Notes under the pieces: generated by a model
Databases searched by the model: none
Seen by the model: only the letters and a program-made list of their open reading frames with translations
Told to the model about the DNA's origin: nothing
Shown: one piece after another, positions 1,229-22,596 of the stretch
Numbering within the stretch: position 1 is the stretch's first letter
Layout: every line of letters starts with the position of its first letter
IMG/VR virus record: IMGVR_UViG_3300043772_001125
Coordinates: 1 to 30,165 of that record
Origin: a virus
Strand: one strand, 5' to 3'
Length of the DNA: 30,165 nt
Position numbers and translations under genes: made by a program

Positions 1229-4200
1229 ATGCCAAACAGTACTTTATCTTTTACATCGTCAAGTGATTTTAGAAATAAGTTAATGGGTAAAAATTTACCT
1301 AAATATACTGTACCTGGTGGTTATACCCCACCCAATGGTCCGACAGTGTATGAAGTACCTATTAACGATTATAGTGTTAAAGACACTCCGGATAAGATAT
1401 CATTTATCCCATCACAAGAATATAGAGATAAGTTAACTGGAAAAAATTTATCACCATATACGGTATTGGGTGCGTTTTCACCTCCAGGTGGACCGACTAA
1501 TTATCCGACAATATTAAGCAATTATAGTGTTAAGGATTCAATATCATTTGATGATGTTGTATATCGTAAATACTTAAATTCGTTATATCCTTTAAATGGG
1601 TTTGGACCAAATGGTGGTTATACTTTTGGTATAACGTATAATGGTGTACCATATACTTTAACACCTAATCAAGGGGAGTATGACGCGAGTGATGCTAAAT
1701 TGCCAGAAAAAAGTAAAAAGATATTAGAAACTTTTTATGTTATCAATAGTTTTAACCCATATGGTGGTTATAACTACTTGTATAGTGTTGATGTTAAAAT
1801 AAAAGACCCATTATATCATGTACCATATCATGATAATTTTGTACCTGGTGTTTACACACCATACCAAATATTTTTTTCACCAACACCTACTGGTATTAGT
1901 ACGGATTCATATTTGGCTAAACTTGGTGCTCAAACATTACATCAAACGTTTAAAGATCGTATTGATTTTGAACAACAGAAAAATACTATCGGTAAATTAT
2001 CATTAGCGTCATTACAAGATCCTTTTGATATTAGTTTAATTTTATCGGGTAAACAACCTTTAATTGCTAGAAATTGGAAAATCACTGTTCCAGAGAATCC
2101 TATCTTAGCCGCTGGTGATTTTGCAACAAGAATTGCTGGAGCGTATTGGCCGGTATCATTTATTCCTGGTGATTATTTTGATGAAAATACAAATAATGGG
2201 GTACAAACATCCCAAACATCTAAAGCATTGGATGTTGCTAATAATTTAACTGGTGGGTTTTTAGGTCCAATATTGAATAAGACAAGAAACCCTTCTCAAT
2301 TATTTTTGGGGAATACTGGTAATGGTCAAAAATCTGCGTTATTTAACAATATTAATTATAATAGATATCAACCTGCGTATAACAAGGGTATTATTCAATC
2401 TGTTATTGAATCGGTATCTAATTTCATAAACCCTAACAATGGTGCACTTGAGGGAGGTTATTATGTTGGTACTCCGAATACTGAGCCTTCAACGATAACA
2501 TCACCAGCGAATGAAATACCAACAAACCCATATGGTCAACAAGTGCCGATGAATGTTTATGGTCCATCCGTTATGGGTAAATTGTTTGAGGGGAATGAAG
2601 AAAAGATTAAGTTTGGTTTTGGTGCTAACCCAATGGGGCAAGGTGGTGGAATTGATGGGGAGTTTAGTTGGACTTCAACGAAGGGTAAAGATGGTTCGGG
2701 GTATAAAGCTAAACCGGGGGGTGATAAAGGTAGTTTAGATGGTGATTTTAACCAGATACAGAGTGTTATCAACCAAAATCAATCAACAAATATTGAGTTC
2801 AAGAAGAATTCAATCTTGGATAATACACAACGAATTGTTGAGTCAGCGGATAATGTTGCTGGTGAAAAGAAATTAAGACACGTAGGTACGGCGATTAATC
2901 AAGTTAGTAAAGTTTTTAACGATGGTTATCGTGAATTAACAAAAGGTTCAAGGGTTATATCATATAAAGATGATACTAATGGTACTGAGGCTGGTATTGA
3001 ATATTGTCGTGTGTTTACAAAAGATACACCATATTATACATATAATGATTTACAGAAGGGTGATGGTATTACTACTGAAGGTAGAAGATTTACGAATTCA
3101 GTATTAGATAATACGTATAACTTAAATATTGCACCATTAAAAAACCCTGGGTCAACAAATATTGTTCAAAACACGAATGGTGATTTTTACGCTAAAAAGT
3201 ATATGTTTTCCATTGAGAATTTGGCATGGAGGACTTCATCAAGACCTGGTTATACATATGATGAACTACCTGTTTGTGAAAAAGGTCCAAATGGTGGTAG
3301 GGTAATGTGGTTCCCCCCATATAACCTTAAATTTTCTGATTCAAGTAACGCGGATTTTCCTGGGACAACATTTATTGGTCGTCCTGAACCGATATATACA
3401 TATAAAAACACGTCAAGGAGTGGTACATTAAGTTGGACTATTATTGTTGATTCACCTTCAGTTATGAACCGAATTGTGGATGAACAATTGAAGGGTATTG
3501 ATGATAAGAAGAAGGATTCAATTTTGAATTCATTTTTTGCGGGGTGTACTAAATTTGATATATATGAATTGGCGAAGAAATATACTAATTTTTCGGTTAA
3601 TGAATTATACGATATACAAGAAATATTAAACAATCCTAGGTTAACTAGTCAGGAACGAGTTGGTGTTATTCAGAATATATCTAAAGACAATACTGGTCAA
3701 TCATCATCGGATGATGGTACTAATAAACAGAGTGGTACACCGGTTGCTCCGGTTGATTTTAGTATGTTTAATAACAAATATTTTTATTTTGAGAATGATT
3801 ATCCGGATCCAAAAACTTTATCAACAACTTCATCAACATCATTTGAAAATTTGATAAATACTTATATATCTGACTCTAATCAAACAAAATATGTTGATAG
3901 AGCAAATAGTGTTAAGTTTGTTGATGAATCAAATAAAAATGTTAAATCATTTTTTGATAATTATATTATCCCATCATATGATTCATTAATTAAGGGTGAA
4001 GTTAATTTAATTTCACAATTATTTAAGGCGATGGAACAAAACAACACGGTTACGATAACATTAACCGGTTCGGCTTCGGCAGTTGCTAAAAATAACTATA
4101 ATATTAATTTATCAACTAGAAGGATTGATTCGGTTAAAAAATTCTTGAACAATTATCAAGTTGGGGGAAAAACATTAAAAGAATATATTGATAACAAAAA

Positions 4201-6388
4201 AATAACCATTGTTGAAAAAGCGGAGGGTGAAGATATTACAATTGCTAGTTCGGGTAATACCGGTGATAATAATGCGGTTAATTGTACTAAAGATATTGAG
4301 GTATATTACAATGGTAAAATATATAATAGAAAAAACATACCAAATAACGCGGTACGTTCGTTATTAAATATTGCGGATGTTTATTCCGTGGATGCGATGG
4401 CTTGTAGACGTGTTAGATTGGAAGTTACACCTTTTCCGCCTAAAGTTGAAAAAATAGTTGAAGATCCAATTGAACAATTAACAACGACAATACCACCAAA
4501 ACCTCAACCAACAGTTGATGTTAGTGAACAGATTAGAAAAGGTATAAGTAAAAAGATTATTCGCAAGATGTTATCGGAGTGTGATTATTTTGAAATGGTT
4601 AAAAAGACTGATCCGATGATATATAATTCATTATCACAAAAGATTAAGTATTTCAATCCGGCATTCCATTCAATGACACCTGAAGGATTAAACGCTAGGG
4701 TAACCTTTTTGAATCAATGTTTAAGACCTGGTGAAACAATTCCGACGGTGGATGACAAGGGTACAATAATTAAAAAAGATGCGATAAATACATCATTCGG
4801 AGCACCCCCAATTTTGGTGTTAAGAATTGGTGATTATTTCCATACTAAAATTGTTCCAGATACGGTATCATTTACTTATGAACCATTGAATTATGATTTA
4901 AATCCTGAAGGGATTGGGGTTCAACCAATGTTGGTTAATGTTACCATGAATTTTAAGATCATTGGTGGTATGGGTTTACAAGGCCCAATTGATGAACTAC
5001 AAAATGCGTTATCGTTTAATTATTATGCGAATACTGAAATATATGATGAACGTGCCACACCAACTGAAGATACTAGTAAATTAGATAAGATGTTGGTTGA
5101 TAATATTTTAGCACAATCGAACAATTCAACACCAAAAAATACATCGCAAGTAGTGAATAATGGTGGTAATACGATTGGTGAAATAAAAACAACTATTCCA
5201 GTTGATGGTGGTGAACAAGGTCAAATTAGTTATCAAACAATTATGGATAAACAATTGGATAATGTTAAATCATATATTACAACAATATCGGATCAATTGG
5301 AGAAGATGAATAAGATATATAATTATGGTATTTTACAATTGATATCATATAAACAACGTGATTATGTTGATGGTAATATTGGTGGGACAACAACAGTTAT
5401 TTATGGTAAACCAAATCAATTAACAAATGGGTTAATGGATAAATTGTTTGACAACACTAGTTCAGATTGTGTTATTAGTGGTGGTGATTCGCAGAATCCA
5501 ATATTGAAATATTTTATAAAAAAAGGATTCAAACCTAATATGGATAATGTTATTGAAATGATTAGTCAAAATCTAGTATCATATATTAAAAATATGAAAT
5601 CAAGTTTTTCTAATGAATATACGAATATTATTCAAACAATTGTTTTAGAGGAACAAAACTTGATACAAAATATTAATAAGTTAAATTTTATAAGTGGTGG
5701 TTATGATGGTAAAATTATTGATGGGTTAACACCTAAAGCGTATTTTACGTCTGGTACAACACAAGTTAGTCCATTAAGTAATACACCCCCAATTCCATTA
5801 AATACTAGTGAAGAATTATTAAATGACTTATCTAAAATGGCAACAACGTTAAAAGATTATGAAAAGTCATTAATGGAGAATGATTTAATTGCTAGTCCAT
5901 TAAATTTTGATGAAGCGAACGCTACATTTAAACCATTAACAAATAAAATCGGTAGTTTTGATGATAAAGAATTTGCCTCAATTCGTTTTTATATGTTATT
6001 TTCAACAATATTTTTAGATAAATCAAAACTTGAAGGTTTTAAGAATGAAATTATTGCGGGTCCTTTAAAAACAATTAATAACCATAAAAAAATTAAAAAG
6101 GTTATGGATGATATTTGTGAAGATTTGGCTAAAGATTATCAAAAAGAATACGACGCGGAACAAAAAGTATTTACAAAATATAAAGAATCTAAAACGTATA
6201 AAGATTATACAGATGGGATTGAATTGAAGTTATACCCTAAAGGTAAAACACGTATTTTTGATTTTACAACAGTATCAACAGACGCAGTTGTTAGGAGTTT
6301 AGTTGAAATAGGTTTACGTACCCTATATTCAACAACACCAATTAGTGAACCAAAAAGTACATTCAACGATAAAACAAAATTGAACTAA
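1229..6388 (+). CDS. Large baseplate protein with N-terminal repeats and OmpA-like domain
   Basis: A 1719-residue protein. Residues 6-52 and 57-103 are two copies of a Pro/Gly/Tyr-rich repeat ending in YSVKD, and a more diverged third copy follows from about 105. Residues ~590-760 form a conserved-looking block with the motif WFPPYNL and a segment rich in Thr/Ser/Gly (YTYKNTSRSGTLSW). Residues ~845-1070 look like an OmpA/MotB-type peptidoglycan-binding domain: an opening YFYFENDYP strand, the central motif INLSTRRIDSVKKFLNNY, and a closing ACRRVRLEV. Around 1190-1275 is a beta-rich block (PPILVLRIGDYF onward, ending FKIIGGMGLQGP) of the kind seen in proteins that join tail tube and baseplate. 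The rest is Asn/Thr-rich with helical stretches. The gene is followed after 6 bases by a gp53-like wedge gene. A baseplate location is inferred from neighbours and domains; the exact T4 counterpart (gp48/gp54-like or other) is not settled. Confidence 0.7.
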   Translation: MPNSTLSFTSSSDFRNKLMGKNLPKYTVPGGYTPPNGPTVYEVPINDYSVKDTPDKISFIPSQEYRDKLTGKNLSPYTVLGAFSPPGGPTNYPTILSNYSVKDSISFDDVVYRKYLNSLYPLNGFGPNGGYTFGITYNGVPYTLTPNQGEYDASDAKLPEKSKKILETFYVINSFNPYGGYNYLYSVDVKIKDPLYHVPYHDNFVPGVYTPYQIFFSPTPTGISTDSYLAKLGAQTLHQTFKDRIDFEQQKNTIGKLSLASLQDPFDISLILSGKQPLIARNWKITVPENPILAAGDFATRIAGAYWPVSFIPGDYFDENTNNGVQTSQTSKALDVANNLTGGFLGPILNKTRNPSQLFLGNTGNGQKSALFNNINYNRYQPAYNKGIIQSVIESVSNFINPNNGALEGGYYVGTPNTEPSTITSPANEIPTNPYGQQVPMNVYGPSVMGKLFEGNEEKIKFGFGANPMGQGGGIDGEFSWTSTKGKDGSGYKAKPGGDKGSLDGDFNQIQSVINQNQSTNIEFKKNSILDNTQRIVESADNVAGEKKLRHVGTAINQVSKVFNDGYRELTKGSRVISYKDDTNGTEAGIEYCRVFTKDTPYYTYNDLQKGDGITTEGRRFTNSVLDNTYNLNIAPLKNPGSTNIVQNTNGDFYAKKYMFSIENLAWRTSSRPGYTYDELPVCEKGPNGGRVMWFPPYNLKFSDSSNADFPGTTFIGRPEPIYTYKNTSRSGTLSWTIIVDSPSVMNRIVDEQLKGIDDKKKDSILNSFFAGCTKFDIYELAKKYTNFSVNELYDIQEILNNPRLTSQERVGVIQNISKDNTGQSSSDDGTNKQSGTPVAPVDFSMFNNKYFYFENDYPDPKTLSTTSSTSFENLINTYISDSNQTKYVDRANSVKFVDESNKNVKSFFDNYIIPSYDSLIKGEVNLISQLFKAMEQNNTVTITLTGSASAVAKNNYNINLSTRRIDSVKKFLNNYQVGGKTLKEYIDNKKITIVEKAEGEDITIASSGNTGDNNAVNCTKDIEVYYNGKIYNRKNIPNNAVRSLLNIADVYSVDAMACRRVRLEVTPFPPKVEKIVEDPIEQLTTTIPPKPQPTVDVSEQIRKGISKKIIRKMLSECDYFEMVKKTDPMIYNSLSQKIKYFNPAFHSMTPEGLNARVTFLNQCLRPGETIPTVDDKGTIIKKDAINTSFGAPPILVLRIGDYFHTKIVPDTVSFTYEPLNYDLNPEGIGVQPMLVNVTMNFKIIGGMGLQGPIDELQNALSFNYYANTEIYDERATPTEDTSKLDKMLVDNILAQSNNSTPKNTSQVVNNGGNTIGEIKTTIPVDGGEQGQISYQTIMDKQLDNVKSYITTISDQLEKMNKIYNYGILQLISYKQRDYVDGNIGGTTTVIYGKPNQLTNGLMDKLFDNTSSDCVISGGDSQNPILKYFIKKGFKPNMDNVIEMISQNLVSYIKNMKSSFSNEYTNIIQTIVLEEQNLIQNINKLNFISGGYDGKIIDGLTPKAYFTSGTTQVSPLSNTPPIPLNTSEELLNDLSKMATTLKDYEKSLMENDLIASPLNFDEANATFKPLTNKIGSFDDKEFASIRFYMLFSTIFLDKSKLEGFKNEIIAGPLKTINNHKKIKKVMDDICEDLAKDYQKEYDAEQKVFTKYKESKTYKDYTDGIELKLYPKGKTRIFDFTTVSTDAVVRSLVEIGLRTLYSTTPISEPKSTFNDKTKLN
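1244..1537 (+). repeat. In-gene tandem repeat, two ~47-residue units
   Basis: Unit 1 covers 1244-1384 and unit 2 covers 1397-1537 inside the large baseplate gene. Both share the order SF-x-(S)-(x)-(Y/F)R-(N/D)-KL-x-GKNL, then YTV, PP, GPT, and YSVKD. A weaker third unit starts near 1541. The DNA copies have diverged, so this is an old protein-level repeat, not a recent duplication. Confidence 0.75.
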
Positions 6389-20430: not shown

Positions 20431-22596
20431 GTGATGAGTAAGAATAAGAATTTTGAATATTTGGGTAGTGGATTTCAACTACAATTATTAAACCAGTTGG
20501 TTGTTGATAAGGACTTTGCCAAAACGATAATTGATGTTATTGACGTGAATTATTTTGAAAACAAATACTTCAAGTTGATTCTTCAGATGATCAAGGAATA
20601 TTATTCAAGATATGAAAATGTTCCAAACTACGATACGTTAAAACAATTGACGTTATCCGAAATTGCTCAAGAAAATGCTGCCAAGTTGGTTATTGATACC
20701 ATCAAGAAGATTCAAGACGCACCAATGGATGGTCAAGAATTTGTTCAAGAAAAAGCCTTAAAATTCTGTAAACAACAAGAATTGCAAAAGGTTATGGTTA
20801 AAGCCCAAAAGATTATTGATGGGGGTGAATTTGAGAATTACGATAAGGTGGAACAACTTGTTCGTGATGCCCTACAGGTGGGACAACATGATAACGATAT
20901 GATGGATGTTTTTTCCGATCTTGATGAAGTATTGGAGGAAGATTATCGTCACCCAATTCCGATGGGAATTTCTGGTATTGACCGATTATTAAAGGGCGGT
21001 TTGGCCAAGGGTGAAATTGGGGTTGTCCTTGCTCCTACGGGTGTTGGAAAAGAACATGGGGTATCTGAACCCTTATTAACACCAACTGGGTGGACAACAA
21101 TGGGGGAAATCAATATAGGTGATAAAGTTATCGGTAGTGATGGTAAAGAACAATATGTATTGGGGAAATACCCCCAAGGAGTAAAACCAATTTATAAGGT
21201 TGAATTTACGGATGGTACTTTTGTTAATTGTGGTCTTGAACATTTATGGACGGTTAAGGAAAATGATTCAAAAGAATTTGTTGTATTAACAGCAAACAAT
21301 ATTATGGATGGGTTAAACCAGGGGAATGTTTATCAACTACCAATGGTTAAACCGGTTGAATTCCAAGGACAAGAAGTTGATGAAGATCCATATGAATTCG
21401 GTTTATCTTTATATGATGGGGATGTTATTACAGAAGAAATCACAATAACACAATGTTCAAAATATATCTATAACACTGTTAACGTTCGTTTGAACTTATT
21501 GAGGGGGTTATTTGATACCTTGGCAACAATGGATGAACAAGGATATATTATTTGTGAAATAAATGACGGAAATAAAGCGGTTATTAGAGAATTAGTGTTA
21601 TCTTTGGGGGGTATTAATGAAGATATGGGGGATAATTTTAGAATAACATTCACAACTGGTTTAATTCCTTTTGGGGTCTTAAATAAGATTGATGAATACC
21701 TTGAAGTTAATAAACCAATTCAACAAAAATACGTTAAAGGTATTACATACTCCCACGATGAAGAAGCGGTGTGTATTAAGGTGTCTAATCCGGATGAATT
21801 ATATGTATCTAGGGACTACGTTTTAACACACAACACAACAATGTTAACCAAAATCGCTAATAGTGCGTTTAATCATGGATATAATGTACTACAAATCTTT
21901 TTTGAAGATAATAAGAAAATTATTCAACGTAAACATTATACCTTATGGACAAAAATACATCCAGATGAATTGACGAACAGAAAAGATGAAGTCTTAAAAC
22001 GTGTTAGGGAAATTGAAACCACAATGGAAAATAAGTTGATCTTATGTAAAATGCCATCGGATAGTGTAACGATTTCGCAAATTAAGAATAAGATTCGTAA
22101 AATGATTGCGGACGGAATCAAGATTGATATGGTTGTTTTGGATTATATTGACTGTGTGATATCGGATCGTCAAATTGAAAACGAATGGAAAGCGGAAGGT
22201 GCAGTGATGCGTGGGTTTGAATCAATGTGTCATGAATTAAATCTAGTTGGGTGGCTAGGCACACAAGGTGGGAGGTCAAGTATTTCCGCCGAAGTGGTGA
22301 CCACCGACCAAATGGGGGGTTCAATTAAGAAGGCACAAGTTGGACACGTTATTTTAACAATCGCCCGAACATTACCCCAAAAGGAAATGAAGTTGGCAAC
22401 AATGGCGATAACAAAATCTAGGATTGGTGATGATGGTATTGTGTTTGAAAATTGTAAATTTGACAACGGAATGTTAGATATTGATACAGATACCTCAACG
22501 ACGTTTTTGGGTCATGAAGAAAAACAGGAACAACGAAATAAGGATCGCATTAGAGAATTAATGGATAAAAGAAAAGAAAAACAAAAAACCGAGTAA
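20431..22596 (+). CDS. 41: Replicative DNA helicase, gp41/DnaB-like, interrupted by an intein
   Basis: A 721-residue precursor; removing a 261-residue intein leaves 460 residues, close to T4 gp41 (475). The helicase unwinds the fork as a hexameric ring. Residues 1-~150 are the helical N-terminal domain. The RecA-like core starts with the linker PIPMGISGIDRLLKGGLAKG. Walker A is APTGVGK (201-207), cut by the intein, and continues after it as TTML (469-472). Walker B is VVLDYIDC, followed by the DNA-loop region WLGTQGGRSSISAE and DQMGGSIKKAQVGH. The C-terminus is Lys/Glu-rich. Because the P-loop is split, the enzyme should be inactive until splicing. It is in one operon with the exonuclease and with nrdB (3-base gap), linking fork progress and dNTP supply. 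Confidence 0.9.
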   Translation: MMSKNKNFEYLGSGFQLQLLNQLVVDKDFAKTIIDVIDVNYFENKYFKLILQMIKEYYSRYENVPNYDTLKQLTLSEIAQENAAKLVIDTIKKIQDAPMDGQEFVQEKALKFCKQQELQKVMVKAQKIIDGGEFENYDKVEQLVRDALQVGQHDNDMMDVFSDLDEVLEEDYRHPIPMGISGIDRLLKGGLAKGEIGVVLAPTGVGKEHGVSEPLLTPTGWTTMGEINIGDKVIGSDGKEQYVLGKYPQGVKPIYKVEFTDGTFVNCGLEHLWTVKENDSKEFVVLTANNIMDGLNQGNVYQLPMVKPVEFQGQEVDEDPYEFGLSLYDGDVITEEITITQCSKYIYNTVNVRLNLLRGLFDTLATMDEQGYIICEINDGNKAVIRELVLSLGGINEDMGDNFRITFTTGLIPFGVLNKIDEYLEVNKPIQQKYVKGITYSHDEEAVCIKVSNPDELYVSRDYVLTHNTTMLTKIANSAFNHGYNVLQIFFEDNKKIIQRKHYTLWTKIHPDELTNRKDEVLKRVREIETTMENKLILCKMPSDSVTISQIKNKIRKMIADGIKIDMVVLDYIDCVISDRQIENEWKAEGAVMRGFESMCHELNLVGWLGTQGGRSSISAEVVTTDQMGGSIKKAQVGHVILTIARTLPQKEMKLATMAITKSRIGDDGIVFENCKFDNGMLDIDTDTSTTFLGHEEKQEQRNKDRIRELMDKRKEKQKTE
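21052..21834 (+). mobile_element. Intein in the helicase P-loop, class 3 type, with decayed LAGLIDADG domain
   Basis: A 261-residue protein insert between Lys207 and Thr469 of the helicase precursor. The boundaries follow from restoring GVGK-TTML. Block A is TPTGWTTMGEINIGDKVIGS, preceded by EHGVSEP with no Cys or Ser at position 1. Block B ends in EHLW (Trp273). Block F has Cys448 (AVCIKVSNPDELYV). The end is VLTHN, followed by Thr. Absent Cys1 with Trp in block B, Cys in block F and Thr at +1 is the set known for class 3 inteins. Between blocks B and F there are two weak LAGLIDADG-like helices: EFGLSLYDGD, and LRGLFDTLAT (357-366) followed by VIRELVLSLGG, where a DADG-like end is expected. 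The homing nuclease therefore looks dead while the splicing part looks intact. Confidence 0.85.

Follow-up and report, generated by a model that had tools for sequence, protein, structure and literature searches.

The window, i.e. the whole stretch of 30,165 nucleotides of viral DNA that was analysed, contains an ORF for a gp41/DnaB-like replicative helicase precursor (20434..22596, plus strand; 720 amino acids, 459 after predicted splicing). It matches phrog_19 (DnaB-like replicative helicase) with E-value 1.4e-52 and Pfam DnaB_C with 4.5e-6, just below the Pfam cut-off. The protein has a DnaB-like RecA-fold domain with Walker A, and the gene lies in a phage replication cluster in the order gp32-like SSB, UvsX-like recombinase, endonuclease VII-like protein, 5'-3' exonuclease, helicase, NrdB, NrdA. 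The first-pass annotation had called it a gp41-like helicase, and the phrog_19 match and the neighbourhood agree with this. No second helicase was seen within the window, and the Walker A of the sole one is broken unless spliced.

The order SSB, recombinase, exonuclease, helicase, NrdB, NrdA is the same in Flavobacterium phage immuto, where the helicase is uninterrupted. The nearest relatives of the window NrdA are from Cellulophaga and Tenacibaculum phages (39-41%). Given this NrdA similarity and the immuto-like gene order, a Bacteroidota host is plausible, and the earlier description of a Bacteroidetes phage should be read at that strength. Elsewhere in the window, a 1719-aa ORF (1229-6388) had no match in a PHROG search, and its residues 923-1003 gave a sub-threshold match to the OmpA family (PF00691, E 4.8e-5).

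The helicase gene with the same insert at the same site was found in four other viral contigs, L001-L004, where the intein is 90-98% identical. The ATG at 20434 is a likelier start than the GTG at 20431, because the ATG is kept in the sister contigs and the GTG codon is not (VMSKNK in L001, TMSKNK in L003). The NrdB gene beside the helicase in L002 (L002:1552-2506) is clearly unlike that of the window while the helicases are close, which suggests gene replacement next to the helicase in that contig.

The precursor consists of an N-extein (residues 1-206, 20434..21051) ending with ...LAPTGVGK in Walker A, a candidate class 3 intein of 261 aa (residues 207-467, 21052..21834; E1-HGVSEPLL...YVLTHN261), and a C-extein (residues 468-720, 21835..22596) beginning with T468-TMLTK, all on the plus strand. 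These boundaries follow from empty sites and alignment. When loci were fetched with the C-extein alone as the query, all 79 readable helicases among them had the empty site GK|[S/T]T (e.g. GK|STLL, GK|STFL, GK|TTLM). When the precursor is aligned with an uninterrupted relative and the immuto helicase, a gap of exactly 261 residues opens between Lys206 and Thr468. Thr468 (+1; codon 21835-21837) doubles as the Walker A Thr and the predicted second branch-point nucleophile. Since the empty sites fix K|S/T, no alternative boundary puts a Cys, Ser or Thr at position 1.

The site proposed earlier, within Walker A between Lys207 and Thr469, is thus correct, but each number is one too high because residues were counted from the GTG at 20431; from the ATG the Trp is residue 272, the Cys 447 and the +1 Thr 468 (W66 and C241 in intein numbering). 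The absence of Cys, Ser and Thr from position 1 also stands, with the boundary set by the 79 empty sites. Lack of the TTML junction in uninterrupted relatives had been named as evidence against an intein here; these relatives carry the [S/T]T junction.

The defining features of class 3 inteins are a non-nucleophilic residue 1, Trp at B:12, Cys at F:4, Thr at G:5 and, usually, Ser or Thr at +1 (PMC5222942, PMC7891396). The Cys of block F is absolutely required in them (PMC5222942). Block A of the window intein (EHGVSEPLLTPTG, 21052..21090, plus strand) begins, by the empty-site alignment, with the non-nucleophilic Glu1. Block B (TDGTFVNCGLEHLW, 21208..21249, plus strand) contains HLW at intein residues 64-66, that is, His B:10 (codon 21241-21243) and Trp B:12 (codon 21247-21249). 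Cys F:4, the predicted first nucleophile, is intein Cys241 (21772..21774, plus strand). Block G (21826..21834, plus strand) supplies Thr-His-Asn at the end of ...L-THN: Thr259 (G:5, codon 21826-21828), the penultimate His260 and the terminal Asn261. All residues of the Trp-Cys-Thr (WCT) set noticed in the first-pass annotation are therefore present; however, the Thr of the triplet is Thr259 rather than the Thr at +1.

His64, Trp66, Cys241, Thr259, His260 and Asn261 are invariant in alignment A1 of 22 inteins found by similarity, which was too diverse for a pattern scan. An unfiltered check of 17 more loci missed by the pattern gave the same residues wherever aligned, with two exceptions: position 64 is Gln in L171, and position 260 of L193 is unread (X). 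Alignment A1 and this check are fairer measures than alignment A3, where invariance is partly by construction, Trp and Cys having been conditions of the filter. In PDB the best sequence hits are MchDnaB1 of M. chimaera and MsmDnaBi1 of M. smegmatis, both of them class 3 DnaB inteins (E 4e-14 to 8.5e-13); the resemblance is well beyond what chance would give. The block F His common in class 3 is replaced by Glu249, likewise in the sister and some other relatives; the class 3 AceL NrdHF intein splices well without the block F and penultimate histidines (PMC7891396). Since PF14890 (Intein_splicing) had no match in the window and Pfam gave only a weak Hom_end_hint match on the intein, family libraries alone would miss it.

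The splicing-block tree, which took in six class 1 inteins and none of class 2, separates class 1 from class 3 (44 sequences) at 98.7/100, with the window intein on the class 3 side. The window intein and that of L192, a gp41-like phage helicase, group at 97/100, while many deeper class 3 branches are weak. The AlphaFold2 model, based on an alignment of 62 sequences, has pLDDT 87.6 and pTM 0.83 and predicts a HINT fold. In VIA the top match is 6bs8, the class 3 DnaB intein of M. smegmatis, with Z 20.5 and 1.6 A over 123 of 125 residues; it runs the full length of the intein, from residue 1 to 261 (19-279 in the model). Class 1 structures are close by VIA Z, some within 1 of class 3, and PI-SceI at Z 19.9 is within a tie. 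Ranked by Foldseek E-value, the larger class 1 PI-SceI structures lead, since their match extends over the endonuclease domain as well. Since the VIA margin over class 1 is within a tie, the predicted fold supports the identity as an intein and the correct ends rather than the class by itself. The tree, a check suggested earlier, agrees with the proposal for class 1 against class 3. Together, the residue signature, the clustering, the fold prediction and the selection pattern described below support the assignment of the insert to class 3.

Residues 71-223 of the intein (21262..21720, plus strand) correspond by alignment to a decayed, truncated LAGLIDADG homing endonuclease. Remnants of motif 1 (PYEFGLSLYDGDV, 21388-21426, plus strand) and motif 2 (LLRGLFDTLATM, around 21496-21531, plus strand) are retained. 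In motif 2 the second acidic residue, Asp in relatives, is replaced by Leu157, and about 90 residues of the intein are missing. A Pfam search of the window intein gave no match to LAGLIDADG families, whereas the L192 intein, the nearest relative at the same site, keeps a detectable endonuclease (PF14528, PF05204). The splicing blocks of these two inteins are 78.7% identical and the exteins 51.7%. As the inteins are more alike than the exteins, past lateral transfer is suggested, although stronger constraint on the splicing blocks could contribute to this difference. The window intein is now probably inherited vertically, because its endonuclease is truncated and the catalytic acid is lost.

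Comparisons of the window with the three more distant contigs, L002, L003 and L004, gave dN/dS of 0.041-0.048 in the splicing blocks and a higher value, 0.107-0.124, in the middle region with the endonuclease remnant; the window-L001 pair has too few changes to inform on the middle region. In the same three comparisons the extein dN/dS is about 0-0.1 wherever the alignment is sound, the stretch 626-720 of L004 being misaligned where that gene is fractured. The catalytic residues are all kept in the five contigs. Such values are in line with splicing that is active and a former endonuclease that is less constrained; the intein is real and probably active.

The most natural reading, which we consider very probable on the sequence and modelling evidence, is that a class 3 intein of the phage type, splicing in cis, interrupts the Walker A loop of a gp41/DnaB-like replicative helicase between the invariant Lys and the Ser/Thr. 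We infer its chemistry, the occurrence of splicing and the inactivity of the unspliced helicase from class 3 inteins that have been studied. By analogy with these, Cys241, activated by His64 and Thr259, would attack the Lys206-Glu1 bond to form a branched thioester, and Thr+1 would then accept the N-extein as an ester. Asn261 would cyclise with the help of His260, releasing the intein, and an O-N acyl shift would yield ...GVGK-TTML... with a whole Walker A loop in a 459-residue helicase. On this reading the ancestor was a homing intein with a LAGLIDADG endonuclease, since truncated and deprived of its catalytic acid. The dependence of helicase activity on splicing, proposed earlier, is a reasonable expectation: the ATPase should require splicing because Walker A is whole only after it. 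It is unlikely, though conceivable, that helicase maturation in this phage lineage is in addition a control point set by splicing, with the class 3 intein blocking Walker A and, in the sister phage L004, a split class 1 intein interrupting the gene further downstream. Splicing might then be conditional (e.g. redox-sensitive), which would delay replication until the cell state allows it. Redox-sensitive splicing has reportedly been seen in M. smegmatis DnaBi1; the aligned position of its Cys48, a residue involved in oxidation sensing, is Ile47 in the window intein, where redox control would call for a disulfide with Cys241.

An intein of class 3 by descent could also have lost splicing and persist as a dead or slow remnant, with the helicase precursor left unspliced or replaced by another copy. 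The decay of the endonuclease and Glu249 in place of the block F His would suit such a remnant, and inactive inteins exist, Arth_1007 of Arthrobacter having been described as a pseudogene (PMC3196547). However, purifying selection on the splicing blocks is strong (dN/dS 0.04-0.05), the retention of catalytic residues in five contigs is accompanied by conservation of the exteins, and the only helicase seen in the window would have a broken Walker A. We therefore regard loss of splicing as quite improbable.

The lack of a nucleophile at position 1 is shared with class 2, in which Thr+1 would itself attack the N-terminal junction and the block F Cys would play no part. This route is very improbable here, as class 2 inteins use neither a position-1 nor a block F Cys nucleophile, whereas Cys F:4, Trp B:12 and Thr G:5 form a complete WCT set that is invariant in the group, the window intein groups with inteins matching solved class 3 inteins, and the block F Cys is indispensable to class 3 (PMC5222942). 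The HINT fold is common to class 1 inteins, bacterial intein-like (BIL) domains and hedgehog domains, so that one could think of a class 1 intein with another boundary or of a non-intein insertion such as a BIL domain. But the K|S/T boundary from the empty sites leaves Glu at position 1, where class 1 has Cys, Ser or Thr, the six class 1 references carry Asp in place of the block F Cys, and the tree separates the two classes; such an origin is hardly credible. The cis-splicing class 3 intein thus remains the preferred reading.

Among the closest known systems are the class 3 inteins in insertion site b of mycobacterial DnaB, DnaBi1 of M. smegmatis (6bs8) and DnaB1 of M. chimaera (6rix/6riy). 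They share with the window intein the WCT set, a non-nucleophilic residue 1, the Walker A position and a host protein of the DnaB family. However, at about 140 aa they are mini-inteins, and they carry Ala1 and Ser+1, whereas the window intein has Glu1, Thr+1 and a 153-residue endonuclease remnant. A DnaB of Mycolicibacterium frederiksbergense (L273) contains a P-loop class 3 intein and a downstream class 1 intein in one ORF, as described for M. smegmatis. The gp41-like phage helicases L192, L200-L206 and L231 contain class 3-type inteins with the same site and residue set as in the window. These inteins are 353-369 aa long with endonuclease motifs, and the helicase exteins are 40-52% identical to the window.

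Among sequenced phages, class 3-type inteins were observed in Aeromonas AhC3_1, in Enterococcus kochikohdavirus helicases, in Vibrio YC, mycobacteriophage Cane17, Pseudomonas SL2, Acinetobacter TaPaz and Klebsiella Eowyn terminases, and in PhoH of Eggerthella LE2-3. They have the same invariant His/Trp/Cys/Thr-His-Asn, and nearly all are preceded by the GK of a Walker A-like loop and followed by Thr or Ser (+1). However, the host proteins are different or are distant helicases, and the inteins are about 29-37% identical to that of the window. A ClpA/ClpB-like ATPase in the phage contigs L005-L008 has class 3-type inteins in its first Walker A.

In a phage collection 529 records matched the window intein; those read are of class 3 type, mostly in Walker A loops, and the host proteins of such inteins include helicases, terminases, PhoH, and ClpA- and Snf2-type proteins. 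Scans with the family pattern gave at least about 500-600 candidates in each of the viral and genome collections. A survey of 2020 counted 1,701 class 3 inteins (PMC7891396), and mycobacteriophage class 3 inteins and those at the mycobacterial DnaB P-loop are already published (PMC5050341, PMC6195587). Hence the class cannot be called rare, as had been done. The expectation that this example would widen the known range fails as well, given the sequenced-phage Walker A loops, the other phage helicases and the equivalent position in bacterial DnaB. The window intein is correctly identified but ordinary, and the range of class 3, which already covers phage and bacterial ATPases, is unchanged. What is gained is one more class 3 intein of a gp41-like helicase, well supported and with a decayed endonuclease, together with endonuclease-bearing, decayed and empty relatives matched at one site. 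Such a set helps in dating the loss of homing and in the search for new class 3 inteins of use to protein engineering.

The gp41-1 intein (PDB 6qaz; engineered WCT form 6riz) comes from the same T4-like type of phage helicase, and it is similar to class 3 in block B and in its THN ending (PMC12245125). It is, however, a split class 1 intein with Cys1 and Asp at F:4, and a relative in sister contig L004 is at a different helicase site. In L004 (IMGVR_UViG_3300032223_001001, L004:2383-5221) the helicase gene is fractured, with the same class 3 intein present. Beyond this intein the helicase ORF runs into the N-half of a class 1 split intein like gp41-1 and stops there. An 86-aa ORF with matches to MTES_1575/DUF559 endonuclease folds (PF18741, E 1.1e-10) comes next, and the C-half of the split intein with the remaining helicase follows it. 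Thus the L004 helicase would need both class 3 splicing in cis and class 1 splicing in trans. The split-intein site, at a downstream motif, is empty in the window helicase (GGRSSISAEVV).

Synonymous divergence between the window C-extein (21835-22596) and those of L001-L004 is uneven, high at residues 468-625 and low at 626-720. For the window-L001 pair dS is 0.46 and 0.036, respectively, and the break falls at the split-intein site of L004. One possibility is recombination or co-conversion by homing.
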